From contig OY282444.1 in the NCBI GenBank assembly GCA_958296125.1, positions 4,697,266-4,761,265 of the forward strand: a stretch of 64,000 nucleotides of DNA, given 5' to 3'. The position numbers were made by a program, and so were the translations under genes. Of the stretch, positions 8,261 through 61,369 are shown piece by piece. A model generated the notes under the pieces. It did no database searches. It saw only the letters and a program-made list of their open reading frames with translations, and had not been told where the DNA came from. This DNA comes from an uncultured Poribacteria bacterium (GTDB lineage: Bacteria > Poribacteria > WGA-4E > PCPOR2b). How positions within the stretch are numbered: position 1 is the first letter of the stretch; each line of letters begins with the position of its first letter.

Positions 8261-10396
8261 CTACTTCTCAAATAATGATTCATCCACCTCGGCGTTGAAC
8301 ATGACTTCGCTGGACGTGATTTCGGCAGATTGCTCACCATTATCGACCAAAACGGTATGGAAGGCAACCATCACGCCGGAAACTTCTCGATAGTCATCCA
8401 AGAATTCCTCTCGCTCGGCGGGCCCCTGCACCGTTAACGCTTGATACTCTTTTTTTATAATATGTTTTGTTCCCTGGTCAATAAAGAGTTTAAGGGAATC
8501 TGCCGGTGTATTGCTGACCAGTATGATATCTGCCATTTTGCCTTTTACATCTTCCGCACCAAGATATTGAACAGATACCTCCTCATTAGAAATATAGGTC
8601 AGCAGGTGAACACTATCTCGAAAAATGTCTTTTCTCGTCTCTTCAACCTCTGCTGCAGGGAGGGGTTCAACCCCATGAGGCATCACCAGCCACGCCGATT
8701 GACCGTCATAGATTTGACTCATCTGCATCCCCATCGCCGGAATTGTCATATCCAACCGCGTTTTGGCAGGTAATATTATTGTTATCTCTCCATCAAACTC
8801 CATCATTCCACCGGGTGTATTCACAACCATTTTCCCTTTGGTAACGATGTTTTTTACTCGCTTTAGTTTATCAAGCCCGCCGTGCGCTTCGATAACGTGT
8901 GCAAGAATCTCCTTTGCCCTGGCAACCGCTGCTTCACCCGCATCGAGAACAGGTTCAGGGGAGGGGGGTGGAATGGTAATATCGACTTCTGTGACATCTC
9001 CGAGTGTATTCAACGGCTTATCAAAATCGCTGGCTTTGCCAACGGCGATGAGCGTGAACTTGTCTGGATCTAGGTATTCATCGGCAACACGCCTGACATC
9101 TGCTTTTGTAACCTCCCGAATCCCCGCCATGAGTTGCTCAACGAAATCCTGTGGATATTCATAGTATTCATACCGGAGTGCTCGAAACAGAATTTCTCCC
9201 TTGGTATCATAGTCAAACACAGAAGAATTCATGAAGCCATCAATGGCCTGTTTTAACTCGTCGTCGGTGACCTCTTCGATCCGCATTTTTTCGACTTCAG
9301 CCAGAATCGCTTCGATCGCTGTCACAGTCGTTTCCGACTTGGTCTCACATCTAATGCGAAAGAGTCCGGGAATATCATAACCGGCACCATAATTGTTTCC
9401 AACAGAATATGCCAGCCCTTTTTCAACTCGGATGCTGTTTATCAAGCGGCTGGAAAATCCAATTCCCAGAATTTGGGACATCACGACCAGAGCCGGATAG
9501 TCTTCATTTTTACGTAACCAGCCAATGTGTCCCATACGAATACTCGTTTGGTTCACGTCCTCCTTGTTTACTAGGGCAACTCTCTTCCCATACGCTTCCG
9601 GGATTTCAGGCTTTTCAGGGAGGTCAATCTCCGCAGGTTCCCATGCCTTGAAGGTCTCCTGAAGCTTTGCCAGCATAGTTTCGGAATTGAAGTCCCCAAG
9701 CACACCTAAAATGATGTTGTTCGGACGGAAAAATTTCTGATAAAAAATCACAAGGTCATCACGGGTGATACTGTTAATCGTATCATATTCGGTTGTGCGT
9801 GCATAAGGACTGTCCGCTCCGTAGATAAGTTTACCGAATTCTCGCCCCGTGATACCGCCCGGATTGTCATTTCGGCGCGCAATGGCACTGCGATGTTGCA
9901 CCTTTTCTAACTCGATTTTATCCTCCCGGAATGCAGGATTCATGAGAATATCGGCGAGGATGGATAGCCCCGTGTCGAGATCTTCTTTCAAAACCGACAT
10001 TGATGCCGAGCCTGAATCATCACCGATGCTCGTTTCAACGGACGCGGCTAGATTCTCCAGAATTTCATCGAGTTCATCTCCGGTTTTACTTGTGGTTCCA
10101 CCGATTCGCATGACCGATCCGGTGATTTGTGCCAACCCGACTTTGTCCGCAGGTTCGTAGATTGAACCGGTGCGAATCCGTGCGGAAATGTCGATAATTG
10201 GCAGTTCATGGTCTTCTAGGAGATAAACAATCATCCCATTATCCAATTCAAACCTATCAGGGACGGGGGGCTGCGGTTGATTTAGGGGAGGATAAACGAG
10301 TCCCTCGTGCGGCTTGTTTCGCGCCTCTCCAACAACAGTAACTAAAAGAATCAGGACAAGCCCCCATATCAGCGAGTCCAACGCGTACTTTCTCAC
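8261..10396 (-). CDS. M16-family peptidase-like protein, non-catalytic partner, with LolA-like C-terminal domain
   Basis: A 711-residue exported protein with a signal peptide at about residues 1-25. Residues 45-470 are two M16 half-domains. Where the zinc motif HxxEH should be, the sequence reads GLAQITGSVMRIGG, so this subunit lacks the metal site. A C-terminal segment (about 490-711, starting at IEAHGGLDKLKRVKNIV) resembles LolA/outer-membrane lipoprotein-sorting-type beta domains. The GTG start overlaps the stop of the upstream M16 gene by four bases and has GGAGG upstream, so the two are translationally coupled. Catalytic and inactive M16 subunits are known to form heterodimers, which fits this pair. 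Confidence 0.88.
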   Translation of the reverse strand: MRKYALDSLIWGLVLILLVTVVGEARNKPHEGLVYPPLNQPQPPVPDRFELDNGMIVYLLEDHELPIIDISARIRTGSIYEPADKVGLAQITGSVMRIGGTTSKTGDELDEILENLAASVETSIGDDSGSASMSVLKEDLDTGLSILADILMNPAFREDKIELEKVQHRSAIARRNDNPGGITGREFGKLIYGADSPYARTTEYDTINSITRDDLVIFYQKFFRPNNIILGVLGDFNSETMLAKLQETFKAWEPAEIDLPEKPEIPEAYGKRVALVNKEDVNQTSIRMGHIGWLRKNEDYPALVVMSQILGIGFSSRLINSIRVEKGLAYSVGNNYGAGYDIPGLFRIRCETKSETTVTAIEAILAEVEKMRIEEVTDDELKQAIDGFMNSSVFDYDTKGEILFRALRYEYYEYPQDFVEQLMAGIREVTKADVRRVADEYLDPDKFTLIAVGKASDFDKPLNTLGDVTEVDITIPPPSPEPVLDAGEAAVARAKEILAHVIEAHGGLDKLKRVKNIVTKGKMVVNTPGGMMEFDGEITIILPAKTRLDMTIPAMGMQMSQIYDGQSAWLVMPHGVEPLPAAEVEETRKDIFRDSVHLLTYISNEEVSVQYLGAEDVKGKMADIILVSNTPADSLKLFIDQGTKHIIKKEYQALTVQGPAEREEFLDDYREVSGVMVAFHTVLVDNGEQSAEITSSEVMFNAEVDESLFEK

Positions 10397-11943
10397 TTGC
10401 TTTCCTCCTTCTCTTTATCGGATGCCGATGTCACAATCTCTGCCACGGATCGGTTGGCATCTACAAAGTATTCATTTGCAACCCGTTTGATATCTTTATC
10501 CGTCACCTTTTCAATACGCTCAAGCGATTTAAACAGCTCCCGCCAGTCTCCCAGAAGAAACTCAGTACTGCATAACATGCCAGCCAATCCGCTGTTAGAA
10601 CGAAGGGAACGAATTAATGCTGCCTTGGCAAGCGTCTTGACTTTCTTCAGTTCCGACTCCGAAACTAAATCTGTTTTGAGACGCTCAATTTCAGCTAAAA
10701 TCATCTCTTCGTTTTTCGAGTTGGTGTGCCCTTGTGCGGGAAATGAATAGAAGAGGAAGAGATTTGGGTATTTGTCCCCCGGAAATCCCGGGAAAGCACC
10801 GGCGGAGATAGAGATCTTCTCGTCCCGAATCAATCTTTTATAAAGGCGTGATGTTCGGCCCGAAGCCAAAATATTTGTTATTGCACCAAATACCGCGTTG
10901 TCTGGGTGTCTGACCTCCGGTTTATGGTAAGCAATAGCGATGAATGGCTGCGTTTGTTCTACAATTTTGAGTCGCCGTTCCCCTAACTGTTTTGGCTCAA
11001 CAGTCTCAACGCGGGGCGGATTTGGGCGAGCAGGCATTCTGCCAAAGTATTTCTCTGCCATCTGAATAACTTCATCCGTATTTACATCGCCAACAATTGC
11101 AGCAACCATATTGCCAGGAATATAGTGTTCCTCAAAAAACTGAAGGGCTTCTGCTCGCGTCGTCGTGTTAATATCTGACATGTGACCAATGGTTGGATGA
11201 CTATAGGGATGCGCCAGATATGCAAGTCCTTGGAGTTCCTCAATTAATCTGCCGATGGGACTGCTTTCAGTCCTCATCCGCCGCTCTTCTTTGATGACCT
11301 CTTTCTCCTTGAAAAACTCTCGCATCACAGGATCAATAAATCGCTCCGATTCAAGGGCCATCCACAACTCAATCTTATTTGAAGGGAGACTATAGAAATA
11401 TGCAGTCCAATCAGCGGATGTGCCCGCATTGAGGCCGACAGCCCCCTCCTGCTCTAAGATTTTCGTATATTCTTCGCCATCAGAATATTGAGAGGCTTCC
11501 TCCTGAAGACGCTCAAAGTCTGCCTCTAATTGCTCTAGCTTTTCCGCATCGGCGTGGCTTCCCTTCGCCCACTCGGCTCTGAGTTGATCAAACACGGCAT
11601 CCATTTTGTCCATAATCGCTTTTTCTTGATCATACCCTTTTGTTCCGAGCGTCGTTGTTCCCTTGAATGCCATGTGCTCAAAGACATGGGCAATCCCAGT
11701 GTTTCCATATACTTCGTCAACGCTGCCAACGTTGACATAGATATACCCGGAAAACACCGGTGCTTCATGCCGCTCAAGGATGATAAATTTCATGCCGTTG
11801 GACAAAACATGCGCTCTGATTTTTTGCTGGACATCTTCAAATCCGGCTGCATACAATGTCGCTGCACACAAAGTAAATAATATACAAACAAGGCAGCGCA
11901 ATCTTTTTTGAGCCTCAGTTGCAGTCATTCTGGACCATCGCAT
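10393..11943 (-). CDS. M16-family zinc metallopeptidase, catalytic subunit
   Basis: A 516-residue exported peptidase with a signal peptide at residues 1-33. The zinc-binding and catalytic motif HVFEHMAFKGT is near residue 86, and the distal glutamate is in a KEVIKEERRMRTESS helix near residue 215. A charged helical insertion of about 60 residues follows the zinc motif and makes the first half-domain longer than usual. It probably degrades peptides in the periplasm together with the inactive partner encoded immediately downstream. The ATG has a GGAGAA site. Substrate specificity is not visible. Confidence 0.9.
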   Translation of the reverse strand: MRWSRMTATEAQKRLRCLVCILFTLCAATLYAAGFEDVQQKIRAHVLSNGMKFIILERHEAPVFSGYIYVNVGSVDEVYGNTGIAHVFEHMAFKGTTTLGTKGYDQEKAIMDKMDAVFDQLRAEWAKGSHADAEKLEQLEADFERLQEEASQYSDGEEYTKILEQEGAVGLNAGTSADWTAYFYSLPSNKIELWMALESERFIDPVMREFFKEKEVIKEERRMRTESSPIGRLIEELQGLAYLAHPYSHPTIGHMSDINTTTRAEALQFFEEHYIPGNMVAAIVGDVNTDEVIQMAEKYFGRMPARPNPPRVETVEPKQLGERRLKIVEQTQPFIAIAYHKPEVRHPDNAVFGAITNILASGRTSRLYKRLIRDEKISISAGAFPGFPGDKYPNLFLFYSFPAQGHTNSKNEEMILAEIERLKTDLVSESELKKVKTLAKAALIRSLRSNSGLAGMLCSTEFLLGDWRELFKSLERIEKVTDKDIKRVANEYFVDANRSVAEIVTSASDKEKEESK

Positions 11944-42602: not shown

Positions 42603-42839
42603 TTGCTGATGATAGGAATATCTCCAATCGCTAACGACGAAATACTTGTGAATCGTCTATCAAGCAAAGCGGTGTATCTATGCAGTGATAATGATACCGC
42701 AGGAAAGCGAGCCGAAGAGAAACTCGCAAAGGCAATCGGACGAAAAGGCGGCGAGATTTATTTCATACCAGAGCCGACTGCAAAAGACCCCGCCGAAGCA
42801 GCAAGACAAGCACAGGACGTGAACAATGAAAGAAATTAA
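42603..42839 (+). pseudogene. Toprim-domain fragment (primase-like)
   Basis: A 78-codon frame holding only the second half of a Toprim domain. AVYLCSDNDTAGKRAEEKL carries the DxD metal motif and KDPAEAARQA the following Lys-Asp element. This is as in DnaG-type or phage primases and Toprim nucleases. The upstream part of the domain is missing, and neither TTG nor ATG at the beginning has a ribosome site, so it is probably a truncated gene. It overlaps the start of the TPR gene by 14 bp. Confidence 0.55.
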
Positions 42840-44763
42840 GTTTGACAAATGTAAACTGTGGATATCAGAAACCGAACCGAAGCATCCAGATGTCCGAACG
42901 GACATCAAAGATGAAAATGATGCCCGTTCCTATTATAATCGTGGAGCGGCTTACCATAAAAATGGGGATTATGATAACGCTGCCTCCGATTACACCCAAG
43001 CGATAGAACTGAGCCTTGATGGTGCTTATTACGCTTACCTTGGACGTGCGGATGCTTGCCGTGACAAAGGGGATTATGCCAATGCCATTACAGATTATAC
43101 CCAAGCGATACGCCTGAAGCCCGATGATGCTTATGCCTATTTCAGTCGTGGATTGTCTTACTTTATCAAAGGGGATTATAACAATGCTATCTCTGACTAC
43201 ACCCAAGCGATTAAACTGAACCCCGACTATGCCACCGCCTTTGTTCGCGGGTGGGCTTATTATGCCAAAGGGGATTATGATAATGCCATCGTAGATTATA
43301 CACGAGTGATACGCCTGAAGCCCGATTTTGCGGATGCCTATTTCAGTCGTGGGCGTACTTATGATGACAAAGGAGATTATGCCAATGCCATTTCTGACTT
43401 TACCCAAGCGATAGAACTGAACCCCGATTATACAGAAGCCTATTTCTGGCTTGCCAGCGCCTATTTCAATCGTGGATATGCTTACTATGCCAAAGAAGAT
43501 TACGACAATGCCATTTCTGACTTTACCCAAGCGATAGAACTGAACCCCGATTATACAGAAGCCTATTTCTGGCTTGCCAGCGCCTATCGTCGCCGCGGTA
43601 GGGCTTACCGTGCCAAAGGGGATTATGACAATGCTATCTCTGACTACACCCAAGTGATAGAACTAAAACCCGATGATGCCGCTTATTTTTGGCGCGGAGC
43701 GGCTTACTATGCCATTGCAGATTACGATAATGCCATTGCAGATTACGACAAGGCCATTGCAGATTATACCCAAGTGATAGAACTGAACCCTGATTATACA
43801 AGAGCTTGTTTCTGGCTTGCCAGAGCCTATCGTCGCCGCGGTAGGGCTTACTATGCCAAAGGGGATTATGACAATGCTATCTCTGACTACACCCAAGTGA
43901 TAGAACTAAATCCCAATGGTGCTTATGCCTATTTCGATCGTGGATACGCTTACTATGCCAAAGAAGATTACGACAATGCCATTGCAGATTATACCAAAGC
44001 GATAGAACTGAACCCCAATTATACAAAAACCTATCTCTGGCTTGCCAGAGCCTATCGTCGCCGCGGAGAGGCTAACTATAAAAAAGGGGATTACGACAAC
44101 ACTATCGCAGAAGTCTATTCTCAGCTTGCCGATGCCTATTATCGGCGCGGGGAAGTTTACTATGCCAAAGAGGATTACGACAAGGCCATTGCAAATTATA
44201 CCCAAGTGATAAAACTGAAGCCTGATTTTGCTGATGCCTACTCTCAGCTTGCTGATGCCTATTACAATCGCGGAGTGGAGGCTTGCTATAACTGCTATGA
44301 CATAGAGGATTATGACAATGCCATCACAGATTACACCCAAGCGATAAAACTGAAGCCTGATTTTGCTGATGCCTACTCTCAGCTTGCTGATGCCTATTAC
44401 AATCGCGGAGTGGAGGCTTGCTATAACTGCTATGACATAGAGGATTATGACAATGCCATCGCAGATTACACCCAAGCGATAAAACTAAACCCCGATTTTG
44501 CTGATGCCTGCTCTCAGCTTGCTGATGCCTATTACAATCGCGGGGAGATTTACTATTATAAAGGGGATTATGATAATGCCATTGCAGATTACATCCACGC
44601 AATAGAATTGAACCCTGATTTTGCCGATGCCTACTACAATCGCGGAGAGGCTTACTATGACATAGAGAATTATGACGAGGCCTATGACAATGCCATCGCA
44701 GATTACCTAAATGATAAAACTAAACCCCTGATCTTGCGGATGCCTATTACAATCGTGGACTAA
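42826..44763 (+). CDS. Tetratricopeptide-repeat protein
   Basis: A 645-residue protein made almost entirely of TPR-type repeats, roughly 16-17 units. Each has the pattern YYNRGxAYxxKGDYDNAIxDYTQAIxLxPD, with lengths from about 33 to 45 residues. No signal peptide or membrane segment is visible, so it is probably a cytoplasmic scaffold. Units are very alike in DNA, including an almost exact 135-bp tandem duplication. The C-terminus is disturbed: a two-base loss and a one-base gain near 44706-44729 shift the frame, and another TPR unit continues in the new frame to 44897. It sits in opposite orientation between two genes of one transporter. Confidence 0.85.
   Translation: MKEIKFDKCKLWISETEPKHPDVRTDIKDENDARSYYNRGAAYHKNGDYDNAASDYTQAIELSLDGAYYAYLGRADACRDKGDYANAITDYTQAIRLKPDDAYAYFSRGLSYFIKGDYNNAISDYTQAIKLNPDYATAFVRGWAYYAKGDYDNAIVDYTRVIRLKPDFADAYFSRGRTYDDKGDYANAISDFTQAIELNPDYTEAYFWLASAYFNRGYAYYAKEDYDNAISDFTQAIELNPDYTEAYFWLASAYRRRGRAYRAKGDYDNAISDYTQVIELKPDDAAYFWRGAAYYAIADYDNAIADYDKAIADYTQVIELNPDYTRACFWLARAYRRRGRAYYAKGDYDNAISDYTQVIELNPNGAYAYFDRGYAYYAKEDYDNAIADYTKAIELNPNYTKTYLWLARAYRRRGEANYKKGDYDNTIAEVYSQLADAYYRRGEVYYAKEDYDKAIANYTQVIKLKPDFADAYSQLADAYYNRGVEACYNCYDIEDYDNAITDYTQAIKLKPDFADAYSQLADAYYNRGVEACYNCYDIEDYDNAIADYTQAIKLNPDFADACSQLADAYYNRGEIYYYKGDYDNAIADYIHAIELNPDFADAYYNRGEAYYDIENYDEAYDNAIADYLNDKTKPLILRMPITIVD
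44211..44480 (+). repeat. Tandem duplication of a 135-bp TPR unit
   Basis: Two adjacent 135-bp blocks (44211-44345 and 44346-44480) are nearly identical, each encoding 45 residues including EACYNCYDIEDYDNAI. They point to recent repeat expansion by slippage or unequal recombination. Confidence 0.75.
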
Positions 44764-45690: not shown

Positions 45691-46695
45691 CTATCCTCCG
45701 CTGCTTTTGCGAAATACTCCCACCGCAAACCAGCCACGCTCATCAAGATAGTATTCCTGCATCTTCATCCCCGCCGCTGCACAAAGGGAACCAAACCCTT
45801 CAAGCGTATACTTGTAGCTGTTTTCCGTATGGATATATTCGCCTTCCTCAAAATCGAACCCTTGACCAAGACACTCCACGTGAACCCGTTGAGCACACCG
45901 ACTTATCAGGCGCATTTCGATGCGAGAATGTTCCTCGACAAATGGCGCGTAATGGTCGAACAGATTTAAATCGAATTCTCCGACCAATTCACGATTAATC
46001 CGCACCAGTAGGTTTTTGTTGAACGCAGCCGTTACCCCCGCCTCGTCGTTGTAAGCGTCGAAAAGCACCTGACGGTCTTTCACCAAATCAAAGCCTATCA
46101 GCAGGCGGTCCTCCTCACGCATTCGATGGCAAATCTGTCCAATGAAACTGATTGCTTCTTCCCGCTCAGAATTACCGATGTTGCTACCGAGGAACAGAAA
46201 AAGACGGGATTGATTACCTGCTTCGGGTAATAGCCGAAGTGCATCGCTGTGCTCGGCTGCAATTGCTGTGATCGATAACGGCTCATACTCGCTTTTGAGG
46301 GCAATCGACGATTCGAGCAGGAAGTCGGCGGAAATGTCGGTCGGTATGTAGTGGAGATGGGTTTGATTGGCGAGAGTTGCGTCGATAAGAACCCGTGTTT
46401 TGGAGGAACTCCCACTGCCAAGTTCCACAAGTTCCACTTCGCCGGCAAATGTTTCGATGATGGCCCGCGCATTATCTGTCAAGATTTTTTGCTCGGTTCG
46501 CGTTGGATAGTATTCAGGGAGTTTGCAGATCTGCTCAAAAAGTTGCGAACCAGCTGTATTGTAAAAGAAGAGTGGGGGGATACTCTTCGGAGTTTTTTTA
46601 AGTCCTTCTGCAACCGCATCTTTTAACGATTGCTGCGAATCGTGCTTGGGTGCCTTCATCAGGTTGACACCGGCCGGTAGCCCTTGTTTCATCAT
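45691..46695 (-). CDS. egtD: L-histidine N-alpha-trimethyltransferase (EgtD)
   Basis: About 334 residues of the histidine-specific SAM-dependent methyltransferase family. Seen: LFFYNTAGSQLFEQICKLPEYYPTRTE near residue 42, typical of EgtD, SAM motif I VELGSGSSSKTRVLID near residue 90, FLFLGSNIGN near residue 165 and the C-terminal EYIHTENSYKYTLEGF segment near residue 283. It trimethylates histidine to hercynine, the first step of ergothioneine synthesis. EgtB is encoded 87 bp upstream and the ABC ATPase directly downstream. Two ATGs and a TTG compete as start; none has a clear ribosome site. Confidence 0.94.
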   Translation of the reverse strand: MMKQGLPAGVNLMKAPKHDSQQSLKDAVAEGLKKTPKSIPPLFFYNTAGSQLFEQICKLPEYYPTRTEQKILTDNARAIIETFAGEVELVELGSGSSSKTRVLIDATLANQTHLHYIPTDISADFLLESSIALKSEYEPLSITAIAAEHSDALRLLPEAGNQSRLFLFLGSNIGNSEREEAISFIGQICHRMREEDRLLIGFDLVKDRQVLFDAYNDEAGVTAAFNKNLLVRINRELVGEFDLNLFDHYAPFVEEHSRIEMRLISRCAQRVHVECLGQGFDFEEGEYIHTENSYKYTLEGFGSLCAAAGMKMQEYYLDERGWFAVGVFRKSSGG

Positions 46696-46782
46696 CAATT
46701 TGCCATAAGGTGAAGGTAATAAACGCCGAGTCTTACGGGCGTTTCAGCCCTGACTCAACATTCATCAAGTTCAGTTGCTAAT

Positions 46783-48078
46783 TCAAATCGCACAGGTCCG
46801 AAAGCCCGCCAACACATCCCGCCGATCCGGTGTATAGAAGTTACGCCATGTATTTCGGAGGAGACGCGAGCGGGTCGTCCAACAGCCACCGCGTAGAACC
46901 TTACGGGTTTCAAACCACGGTTCCGAATACTCTTTGTAGGGGTCAATTTCAAAGCCCGGATAGGGGCGGAAGGGGGTGCTAGTCCATTCCCAAACGTTAC
47001 CAATCATCTGCCGGCAGCCGAAGGCACTATCGCTTTTTGGACATGCTCCTACGTCAATGCAACCCATTGATTGCCAGTCGAGGTTGGCGTGTTCTGGCGT
47101 TGGGGGTTCATCGCCCCACGGGAAGCGACGCTTCTGTGAAGAGAACCCGCTCCCTGCTAGATTTGGCTCGACAGCGGCGGCTGCCTCCCATTCCGCTTCT
47201 GTTGGAAGGCGGCGACCCGCCCAACGGCAGTATGCTTCGGCTTCATAATAGTTGACATGAACAACCGGAAGGTGTGGCTCAAGTGGGGACCATTTGTCGA
47301 AATGCCGACGCAGCCAACCGTTATTTGAGACCTCCCAGTAGACGGGGTGTATTGCGTTTACGGACTCTCGCCATTCCCATCCCTCCGCACCCCACAATTC
47401 CTTTCGACGATAGCCGTTATCCTCGGTAAACGCGGCAAACTCGGATTGAGTCACAGCGGCACGCGCAATGGCGAACGGCTCAATTTCGACCGGGTGCGCC
47501 CACTTCTCATTGTCAAATACGAAAGGTTCGTCAAGCGTAGCACCTAGCATCAACGTGCCGCCAGGGACTTCGGCATCACCCGACAATGGACCGCCTCCGG
47601 TATCGCGAGGATCTTCAGGAACAGCAGAAAAGCGTGGTGGCGGGTATTCCAAAGTCTGTCGTGTATACGTAAACGCCTCATTGTGCATGTCTTCATGGTA
47701 GGTGGTATAGCGCACAAAATACGCCAGTTCTTCACTCGGCTCCTCGCGCTGAAGCCTGTTCAGAATCTGGTCCCTTACCTCTCGCATATACGCTAACGTT
47801 CCTTCGCGAGAGGGCAACGGCAGATCCCACCGTGTTTCATGGGGGATTGCAATCGAATCCCAAAGAGCATCGGCATCATCACGAATCGGTTTCGCTTGGC
47901 ATGTATCTCGCAGCACCCACTTCTCTTGAAACCACGCCACATGGCCGATTTCCCACAACAGTGGATTGACAATCGAGAGGTAGGGGCTCATTATCTGTTC
48001 ATCGGTGAGATCTGCAACAATATCAAAGGTGCGCTGACGGGCATCAATCACCCACCCAGCAAGTTCGTTGGAGGTCAT
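46783..48078 (-). CDS. egtB: Ergothioneine biosynthesis sulfoxide synthase (EgtB)
   Basis: A 431-residue non-heme iron enzyme. The N-terminal DinB-like domain has iron ligands in IGHVAWFQEKW near residue 46 and in TYHEDMHNEAF near residue 133. The C-terminal formylglycine-generating-enzyme-like domain has PVVHVNYYEAEAYCRWAGRRLPTEAEWEAAA near residue 275 and GNVWEWTSTPF near residue 365. It joins hercynine to cysteine or gamma-glutamylcysteine and oxidises it to the sulfoxide. No egtA, egtC or egtE is in the window; a two-substrate type using free cysteine would need only a C-S lyase elsewhere. A selenoneine-type synthase is a less likely alternative. Confidence 0.93.
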   Translation of the reverse strand: MTSNELAGWVIDARQRTFDIVADLTDEQIMSPYLSIVNPLLWEIGHVAWFQEKWVLRDTCQAKPIRDDADALWDSIAIPHETRWDLPLPSREGTLAYMREVRDQILNRLQREEPSEELAYFVRYTTYHEDMHNEAFTYTRQTLEYPPPRFSAVPEDPRDTGGGPLSGDAEVPGGTLMLGATLDEPFVFDNEKWAHPVEIEPFAIARAAVTQSEFAAFTEDNGYRRKELWGAEGWEWRESVNAIHPVYWEVSNNGWLRRHFDKWSPLEPHLPVVHVNYYEAEAYCRWAGRRLPTEAEWEAAAAVEPNLAGSGFSSQKRRFPWGDEPPTPEHANLDWQSMGCIDVGACPKSDSAFGCRQMIGNVWEWTSTPFRPYPGFEIDPYKEYSEPWFETRKVLRGGCWTTRSRLLRNTWRNFYTPDRRDVLAGFRTCAI

Positions 48079-49777: not shown

Positions 49778-50206
49778 GAAAAAAAATACCTTTCGGTATA
49801 ACACTTTCTCAAAAAGAAGTAATGTGCGCTTCGCCAATGTTGTAAACGCTTGCTATTAATGAATAGTCGTCCTGGGGTCCACCGCCTCACCTTGACAAGA
49901 GACTTTTAAGTTGCCCCGACAGTTGCTCCCGACTAGCGCTATTCTCTGCGGAATACATCTGGAGGTGTCATAACGTAAACAACGTAGTAAACGAATACTT
50001 AGGCTAGATTGAGATTATAGGTTGTCCAATACACCGTAATGGAGGACAACCCTCCATCAAAAAATGATGGATAACATGGTAGCGGTGCAATCGGTTTGTC
50101 GTCAACATCCCAGTGATTTTGCGCGACTGGACGTTGACGACAAAATCGGAGAGCTTTCGCACACTCGATCCAAGTATAGCTTGAAAAACTTGGACCGAAA
50201 AACGGG
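49778..50206 (-). ncRNA. Putative scaffold RNA (omega/tracr-like) of the CRISPR-IscB locus
   Basis: This 429-bp gene-free stretch lies between the array and iscB, where IscB omega RNAs are normally encoded. On the iscB strand it holds, in order: a 10-bp stem with one G-U pair (50197-50166); a long hairpin with a perfect 9-bp base GTCGTCAAC/GTTGACGAC and an inner CCAGT/ACTGG stem (50141-50098); an anti-repeat (50090-50073); a perfect 7-bp hairpin TCCATCA/TGATGGA (50071-50053); and a perfect 8-bp hairpin GGTTGTCC/GGACAACC (50051-50020). A TATTC/GAATA hairpin (49955-49940) follows. The ends of the RNA are not known. Structure by eye, not by folding software. Confidence 0.7.
50073..50090 (-). other. 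Anti-repeat complementary to the CRISPR repeat
   Basis: On the iscB strand this reads TTGCACCGCTACCATGTT. It can pair with the 3' part of the repeat as transcribed on the same strand at 16 of 18 positions, counting one G-U pair. It matches the plus-strand repeat sequence at 15 of 18 bases but is not followed by spacer-repeat periodicity. This is how a tracrRNA anti-repeat relates to its array. Confidence 0.75.
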
Positions 50207-50762
50207 TTGCAACGCTAACATGCTCAAGCTCAAACTTTGCTTACTTTGGTGGCAAGACCTGCTTGCTGTGGTTGCAACGCTAACATGCTCAAGCTCAAAC
50301 GGGCAATTCTGATTATCGTGAGATTGGTGGTGTATCGTTGCAACGCTAACATGCTCAAGCTCAAACGAGGGACACAAAGCTTCAAGGGAAGCGATAGCCC
50401 ATTTGCAACGCTAACATGCTCAAGCTCAAACTTGTATAGAACCTACACAAATCTGATAAAATGTATTCTTGCAACGCTAACATGCTCAAGCTCAAACACA
50501 TTCCCATACGACCGATCGGCTATCAAGTCGCCCTTTGCAACGCTAACATGCTCAAGCTCAAACTCACTCTCAATTTCTATATCGATCAAAACGCAGTTAT
50601 GTTGCAACGCTAACATGCTCAAGCTCAAACATGAATCCCGAGTGAATTTCCTTGCCTATCTGCTCATTGCAACGCTAACATGCTCAAGCTCAAACAAGGG
50701 CATGTCCTTTCCGCCTTCGGGGTTTTTTTATGGTTGCAACGCTAACATGCTCAAGCTCAAAC
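50207..50762 (-). CRISPR. CRISPR array, 9 identical 29-bp repeats and 8 spacers, next to iscB
   Basis: Plus-strand repeat begins TTGCAACGCTAACATG and ends CTCAAGCTCAAAC. On the proposed sense (minus) strand it begins GTTTGAGCTTGAGC, like many type II repeats. Repeat starts: 50207, 50272, 50338, 50403, 50469, 50535, 50602, 50667 and 50734. All nine copies are identical. Spacers are 36-38 bp and all different. The side at 50763-50835 is AT-rich like a leader and carries a promoter directed into the array. The other side leads to the scaffold region and iscB. No cas1 or cas2 lies in the window. Confidence 0.97.
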
Positions 50763-60505: not shown

Positions 60506-61369
60506 TCACGATGTACGATGCCGCAGTTCAATCTCAAGTTGGCGAATCCGCTCCTCTGCGTCAATACGGGCTTGGGCTTCTTCAGCAGCGCGGTTCTCTG
60601 CGTCAATACGGGCTTGGGCTTCTTCGGCAGCGCGGTTCTCTGCGTCAATGCGGGCTTGGGCTTCTTCGGCAGCACGAGCCGACACACCTACATAATCTTG
60701 TATCAAATTGCCCGCTTCATCATAACAAACGAGATTTTCGTCCTCCAAGCCGATCCAAAGGTTGACAGGATCAAGCCAAAGCCATCCGTCCGCATTGGGA
60801 CTCAACTCCTCATAGCCATCCGGTGTGAGTCGATATCCCACCAACTCTCGCACCATGACCCCCCGTCGCTCAAATCGATCTACGATGATGTAGTTCGGTA
60901 CGCCGACCCGCGCATAGTGGTCAACCTTCTTGACAACATCGACTGAACGGGTCGAAGGTGAAACGATTTCGATAATCAGGCTAGGCTTCGTCCCCTCTTC
61001 TACTTCCGAGAAGGTACTCCAGTTGATGTGTCGCCGGACGTTGAAAATCACCGCAATGTCGGGGCCATGGGCTCTCAAAGAAGGGTGTGCCCACGCCACG
61101 CGCAGGTCATGCAAGACCACGGCATCCGGTTCATCTGCAATCCGGGCTGACAATACATTGTAGAGATAGTTACAAAATCGTTCATGTTCATCGGAGTGCA
61201 TTCGGTAATCTCCCACCTGGGGGTGAAGGATATCTTCAAGTGTCAGGGGTGTCCGTTCCTCGATTTCTGTTCCGTCTGGCAAAGTCCGTATTGCTTCACG
61301 CCACCCGTAGCGATAAGGGTCTTTCTTATCAAGGATTTCTCCGTTGGCTGGGAGGGTTACTATTTTCAT
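60506..61369 (-). CDS. Uma2-family (DUF820) putative endonuclease with alanine-rich repeat tail
   Basis: A 287-residue protein. The Uma2/PD-(D/E)XK-like core (about 40-190) shows AHGPDIAVIFNVRR, the KPSLIIEIVSPSTRSVD motif with the acidic residues, and VDHYARVGVPNYIIVD. The C-terminal tail (about 233-287) is three 14-residue repeats of type AAEEAQARIDAEN, a probable coiled coil. Uma2 proteins are abundant in cyanobacteria and other phyla and often multiply in genomes; their role is not settled. AAGGAG precedes the ATG. Confidence 0.85.
   Translation of the reverse strand: MKIVTLPANGEILDKKDPYRYGWREAIRTLPDGTEIEERTPLTLEDILHPQVGDYRMHSDEHERFCNYLYNVLSARIADEPDAVVLHDLRVAWAHPSLRAHGPDIAVIFNVRRHINWSTFSEVEEGTKPSLIIEIVSPSTRSVDVVKKVDHYARVGVPNYIIVDRFERRGVMVRELVGYRLTPDGYEELSPNADGWLWLDPVNLWIGLEDENLVCYDEAGNLIQDYVGVSARAAEEAQARIDAENRAAEEAQARIDAENRAAEEAQARIDAEERIRQLEIELRHRTS
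60558..60683 (-). repeat. Three 42-bp tandem repeats inside the Uma2-family gene
   Basis: Units at 60558-60599, 60600-60641 and 60642-60683 are nearly identical and in frame, so copy-number change would lengthen or shorten the coiled tail without a frameshift. Confidence 0.8.

Follow-up and report, generated by a model that had tools for sequence, protein, structure and literature searches.

In the stretch of Poribacteria DNA that we have analyzed (64,000 nucleotides, hereafter the window), the minus strand carries a gene for the nuclease IscB beside a CRISPR array, together with an intervening region whose predicted RNA can pair with the repeats of the array. This locus most likely encodes a CRISPR-associated IscB with a split guide, composed of a crRNA and a tracrRNA-like scaffold. 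Our direct observations concern the anatomy of the locus, the pairing, its co-variation among relatives, the conserved catalytic residues and the clade structure of the proteins; in the absence of RNA or activity data, transcription, processing, RNP formation, cutting and immunity are inferred. In the order of transcription, the features of the locus are the following.

50207-50762, minus strand: CRISPR array of nine identical 29-nt repeats, GTTTGAGCTTGAGCATGTTAGCGTTGCAA, and eight spacers of 36-38 nt
50146-50206, minus strand: leader-like stretch from the last repeat to the long hairpin, partly conserved (by eye) in the sequence of relatives
50095-50145, minus strand: long conserved hairpin in the interval from array to anti-repeat, with paired changes among loci
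50073-50090, minus strand: anti-repeat, complementary to the 3' portion of the repeat
50054-50070, minus strand: one of two hairpins between the two anti-repeat blocks
50020-50051, minus strand: the other hairpin between the two anti-repeat blocks
50015-50017, minus strand: 3 nt in the middle that pair, in the co-fold, with positions 9-11 of the repeat
50007-50013, minus strand: second anti-repeat block, CTCAATC, pairing with nucleotides 1-7 of the repeat (GTTTGAG)
49819-50006, minus strand: omega-RNA-like core matching the HEARO model RF02033
48164-49777, minus strand: iscB, 537 amino acids from ATG, with PLMP, RuvC, bridge helix and HNH, matching profile NF040563

A previous, sequence-only reading had proposed that the element at 50073-50090, which is AACATGGTAGCGGTGCAA on the plus strand and TTGCACCGCTACCATGTT on the strand of iscB, can pair with the 3' part of the repeat at 16 of 18 positions. 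When the window is read again, both the position and the letters prove exact, and the pairing consists of 15 Watson-Crick pairs plus one G-U pair, with two C-U mismatches. The element also stands isolated, as had been claimed, outside the 65-67 nt periodicity of the array, and is inverted relative to it; no other site on the iscB strand of the 64-kb window has the same score. Dinucleotide shuffles give p = 0.017 for the best ungapped complement of the repeat within the 429 nt interval between array and iscB, the score of the anti-repeat being matched by 33 of 2000 shuffled repeats. Alone this value is only suggestive, and it is the conservation and co-variation in relatives that render the anti-repeat convincing. 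As a control, nine repeats score on average 22.1 against five upstream regions of ordinary omega loci and 31.9 against their own regions; the repeat of the window reaches 31 against the omega region of G008a, near the 32 it has against its own region.

IscB proteins are found at E<=1e-20 in 8 of 84 genomes of the Poribacteria phylum, and larger surrounding regions were examined for 12 loci from seven genomes other than that of the window. All nine repeat-bearing loci, distributed among six genomes of Poribacteria, share the order of repeat (or repeats), anti-repeat, omega-RNA-like core and iscB. In seven of them, counting the window, the omega core and iscB are directly preceded by an array, while G074a and G074b have one repeat each; ordinary omega RNA without any repeat is present in G008 (two loci) and in G007, of which a second locus (L057) ends inside iscB and had its upstream region left out of the counts. 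The best complement of the repeat falls between the end of the array and the omega core in each of the nine, with p values of 0.001 for G075, 0.002 for G074b, 0.007 for G070a, 0.011 for G040 and 0.025 for G074c, besides the value given above for the window; the remaining three are not significant when taken alone (G074a, 0.071; G045, 0.083; G070b, 0.139). The anti-repeat is present in every repeat-bearing locus found and changes along with the repeats, the relation of tracrRNA type that the earlier reading had claimed; that reading had set conservation and co-variation in relatives beforehand as a test able to refute it, and both were found. Chance complementarity, for which the window alone gave no firm rejection, is rejected on the same conservation and co-variation, and on this decisive comparative evidence the anti-repeat at 50090-50073 is real as a sequence element.

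Arrays of these loci contain up to 21 mostly identical repeats, and five of the seven have degenerate repeats at the end distal to iscB, which makes it likely that they grow at the proximal end. Exclusion of one spacer with an N (G070a) and of one of 19 nt (G075) left 65 spacers. In G075, two successive arrays with different 37-nt repeats lie upstream of iscB (L046, 8929-9849), and the anti-repeat matches the nearer one only. A cobalamin riboswitch is located upstream of an omega-type iscB in G008 (L043, 897-1090).

The Rfam model for HEARO (RF02033) matches the window at 50058-49819 with 64.3 bits (E 5.1e-12), without reaching the gathering score of 83; the core scores 40-83 bits in the nine repeat-bearing loci, eight of which miss the gathering score, and 134-148 bits in all three ordinary omega loci. 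Directly before this core, nucleotides 1-7 of the repeat pair with the block at 50013-50007. This block had escaped the earlier reading, whose anti-repeat consequently holds for the 3' part of the repeat but is incomplete as a description of the whole. The block stands where an omega RNA has the 3' strand of its guide-adaptor stem P1, and ordinary omega RNA of the phylum does have the 3' strand of its post-guide stem there (GTCAACT...AGTTGAC in G008a). From this match in position it follows that the repeat begins where an omega scaffold would, and that the spacer is the counterpart of the omega guide; and since the block lies where omega RNAs close their guide-adaptor stem, the repeat appears to have taken over one strand of it.

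Starts of the repeats and their blocks read GTTTGAG/CTCAATC in the window, GTTACCG/CGGTATC in G045, GTTTCCG/CGGAATC in G070b, GTCATCG/CGATGAT in G070a and GTTTCAG/CTGAATC in G075. Across the nine loci, 53 of the 63 positions of the P1 block are paired, a number equaled in 12 of 20,000 permutations; four of the seven pairs are altered on both sides, in 12 cells, and the co-variation score was reached by none of 500 shuffles. This co-variation amounts to 0.70, falling to between near zero and 0.18 when the partner is slid, and is better than that of the half at 50073-50090; pair 2 of P1 is mismatched in seven of eight rows. The long hairpin between array and anti-repeat is seen in seven of the nine loci, G075 and G074a being without it. 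In the six loci compared, 6 of its 16 pairs have changed on both sides, and 2 of 500 shuffles gave as many.

Energies of the predicted duplexes between repeats and scaffolds sum to -263.8 for own partners and to a mean of -197.5 for permuted ones, with only 1 of 20,000 permutations as low. Exceptions occur in this exchange of repeats and scaffolds: the repeat of the window comes third in its row, and for the scaffold of G040 the repeat of G045 is a stronger partner (-40.7) than its own repeat (-32.6). When the repeat and the scaffold of the window are co-folded without constraints, 25 of the 29 nucleotides are paired and both blocks are used, with the two hairpins between them. The same two-block form, including two hairpins, is obtained for G045 and G070b, and a single near-continuous anti-repeat for G040, G070a, G074a, G074b, G074c and G075. 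Shuffled repeats did as well in 1 of 500 cases for the window and in no case, of 500 each, for the remaining eight loci. These last figures lean towards structure, because the scaffold regions used for co-fold and duplex permutation had been delimited after the pairing had been seen; the permutation across loci leans less, yet the loci are interrelated, and in some rows or columns an exchanged partner pairs better than the own one.

Regarding the protein, the IscB of the window matches NF040563 with 375 bits (cut-off 175) and meets neither the Cas9d model (46.7 bits, cut-off 375) nor that of Csn1/Cas9 (26 bits, cut-off 100). Residues D62, E184, H237, H336 and D339 are invariant across 14 aligned IscBs; a structure model with mean pLDDT of 68 served only to confirm the IscB fold. 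Repeat-bearing IscBs form a single clade (support 100/100) apart from the omega-type IscBs of the phylum, and possess an insertion between the bridge helix and RuvC-II, small in the window and of roughly 110 aa in G040, that the omega-type relatives do not have. REC-like parts of IscBs and Cas9s sit in this same place according to PMC13180657, which puts TbaIscB at the founding of the Cas9 lineage. A special tie of the repeat-bearing clade to that lineage is rejected, on evidence that we consider moderate given the long branches: the clade groups with ordinary IscBs of its own phylum and of Ktedonobacter, leaving TbaIscB outside; the AU test against joining it with TbaIscB gives p 0.03; and an omega-type neighbor matches TbaIscB and Cas9d at least as strongly.

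How might such a locus work? The RNA of the array would be cut into units, each constituting a crRNA in which the spacer, as guide, is followed by the repeat. The putative scaffold would be encoded from about 50145 to 49819, comprising hairpin, anti-repeat, two hairpins, second block and omega core, and the repeat of the crRNA would pair with it over nearly its full length, in two blocks. In the guide-adaptor stem known from omega RNA, the 5' end of the repeat would substitute for the 5' strand, bringing the spacer to the position of the omega guide, and IscB would bind the complex of crRNA and scaffold as it does omega RNA, cutting the DNA matched by the spacer. New spacers would probably enter at the end proximal to iscB, as inferred from the degenerate distal repeats, and their uptake, if any, would rely on adaptation proteins encoded elsewhere.

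The claim of the sequence-only reading that the guide RNAs are separate is supported as an inference, given eight distinct spacers and one anti-repeat, but does not dispose of cis pairing by the last repeat. In such a case the last repeat alone would pair within one transcript, the product would be a naturally fused omega RNA whose guide-adaptor arm is long, and the remaining spacers would be inactive or used only after recombination. Array and scaffold indeed lie on one strand, with 116 nt from the last repeat to the anti-repeat; two loci of G074, which bear on the question of separate RNAs, consist of a single repeat with its anti-repeat; and G075 has a truncated proximal repeat near the anti-repeat. 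That the 5' strand matching 50013-50007 is found in the repeats does not exclude this possibility either. We consider it unlikely nonetheless, for the long arrays of mostly identical repeats have been kept, implying that the other units are used or that growth is recent, and the nine repeats of the window are identical. A regulatory function, in which the anti-repeat would pair with pre-crRNA to control processing or the expression of iscB, outside the effector guide, would fit its location in the 5' region of the gene; long natural tracrRNA variants do regulate Cas9 in some type II systems. The exact coincidence of the second block with the omega guide-adaptor stem, and the omega core that comes directly after it, make this alternative appear very improbable.

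We find it harder still to believe that the array is part of an ordinary CRISPR-Cas system, of type I or III, with iscB as no more than a neighbor and the complementarity accidental. Elsewhere in the source genome there are three cas1 matches of full length and three cas2 matches, and arrays occur close to the cas1 genes. However, the arrays linked to cas1 carry different repeats, the reason for rejecting an origin from another CRISPR system, and a query with the array did not find the repeat of the iscB locus anywhere else in its own genome. The order of array, scaffold and iscB, moreover, recurs in seven loci with co-varying pairing, and the single-contig genome G040 (L053) has an IscB array of nine repeats, degenerate at the far end, without a cas1 or cas2 match in the genome. 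No cas1 or cas2 adjoins the iscB locus of the window, all matches in the source genome (G000) being outside the window and the nearest cas1 match a fragment at 4.879 Mb. The 3' 19-21 nt of six of the eight window spacers had 0 matches among viral contigs, the array stretch had none among phages and plasmids, and among the 84 phylum genomes it matched only itself and the array of G045, without any spacer target; this lack weighs against the split-guide reading.

The notion of a CRISPR-associated IscB ('CasIscB'), likewise an IscB beside a CRISPR array, is already in print; Altae-Tran 2021 is reportedly its first description. Another paper calls HEARO systems not CRISPR-associated (PMC9755519), and further IscB-related literature includes PMC10910872, PMC12991159 and PMC8730458. 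In searches that left out most subscription journals, nothing was found on IscB, CRISPR and Poribacteria together, which proves little, and the split-guide arrangement was not found described in what was available on IscB with CRISPR array and anti-repeat. Our locus shares the protein family with OMEGA IscB and, as judged from a match below the gathering score, the core of its HEARO/omega RNA (RF02033), but an ordinary omega RNA is one molecule that holds the guide as well as the two strands of the adaptor stem, whereas here the 5' strand appears to lie in the CRISPR repeats. As in the crRNA:tracrRNA of type II Cas9, the spacer is 5' of the repeat, the anti-repeat scaffold is encoded between array and nuclease, and, at the level of sequence only, an array occurs with a co-varying anti-repeat in a predicted scaffold RNA; unlike type II, the nuclease is IscB, the putative scaffold retains a full omega-RNA-like core, and cas1 and cas2 are not adjacent.

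In the origin of Cas9, the step by which a one-piece transposon guide RNA gave way to crRNA plus tracrRNA has yet to be explained. One source equates the repeat:anti-repeat duplex of Cas9 with the guide-adaptor hairpin of IscB (PMC9640706), and another derives the CRISPR array, as a proposal, from strands of the omega adaptor stem (PMC9581776). The Poribacteria loci look like this step of guide splitting, in a lineage retaining the full omega core, in which single-repeat, short-array and long-array forms coexist and co-variation pinpoints the nucleotides to test; they may also yield compact nucleases with naturally separable guides. We tentatively suggest, without regarding it as the likelier outcome, that a dual-RNA guide arose in one IscB lineage of Poribacteria separately from that of Cas9. 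The 5' strand of the guide-adaptor stem in omega RNA would have become a CRISPR repeat and multiplied into arrays, leaving the remaining omega RNA as tracrRNA; the protein insertion at the REC position would have grown alongside, and resident systems of type I or III would have lent their adaptation proteins for spacer uptake. Repeats and spacers of the iscB arrays are indeed close in size to those of resident arrays (mostly 29-30-nt repeats with a period of about 65-69, and 37-nt in G075).

Beyond Poribacteria, of 301 genomes from the Ktedonobacter phylum 6 have strong matches, with no array-spaced repeats in the eight loci examined there. None of 57 IscB loci on viral contigs has array-like repeats close to iscB; on one such contig (L099), array-like repeats (six copies of an 18-mer) are located about 2 kb upstream of iscB. 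The single-repeat locus G074b (L048, iscB at 9608-11023) has upstream sequence identical to that of L096 on contig IMGVR_UViG_2744054414_000001, which IMG/VR calls viral; the single-repeat IscB on that contig has an intact anti-repeat and lies near genes for ParB-like, DNA methyltransferase-HNH and DprA-like proteins, and a phage-borne version with one guide is possible.

Elsewhere in the window, the plus strand contains an ORF of 645 aa (42826-44763) with tandem repeats resembling TPR units. On the minus strand at 45694-48078, a gene for a histidine-specific methyltransferase adjoins one for an FGE-sulfatase/DinB_2 protein, presumably a pair as in ergothioneine synthesis. A 42-bp tandem repeat of 2.9 copies is present at 60554-60673.
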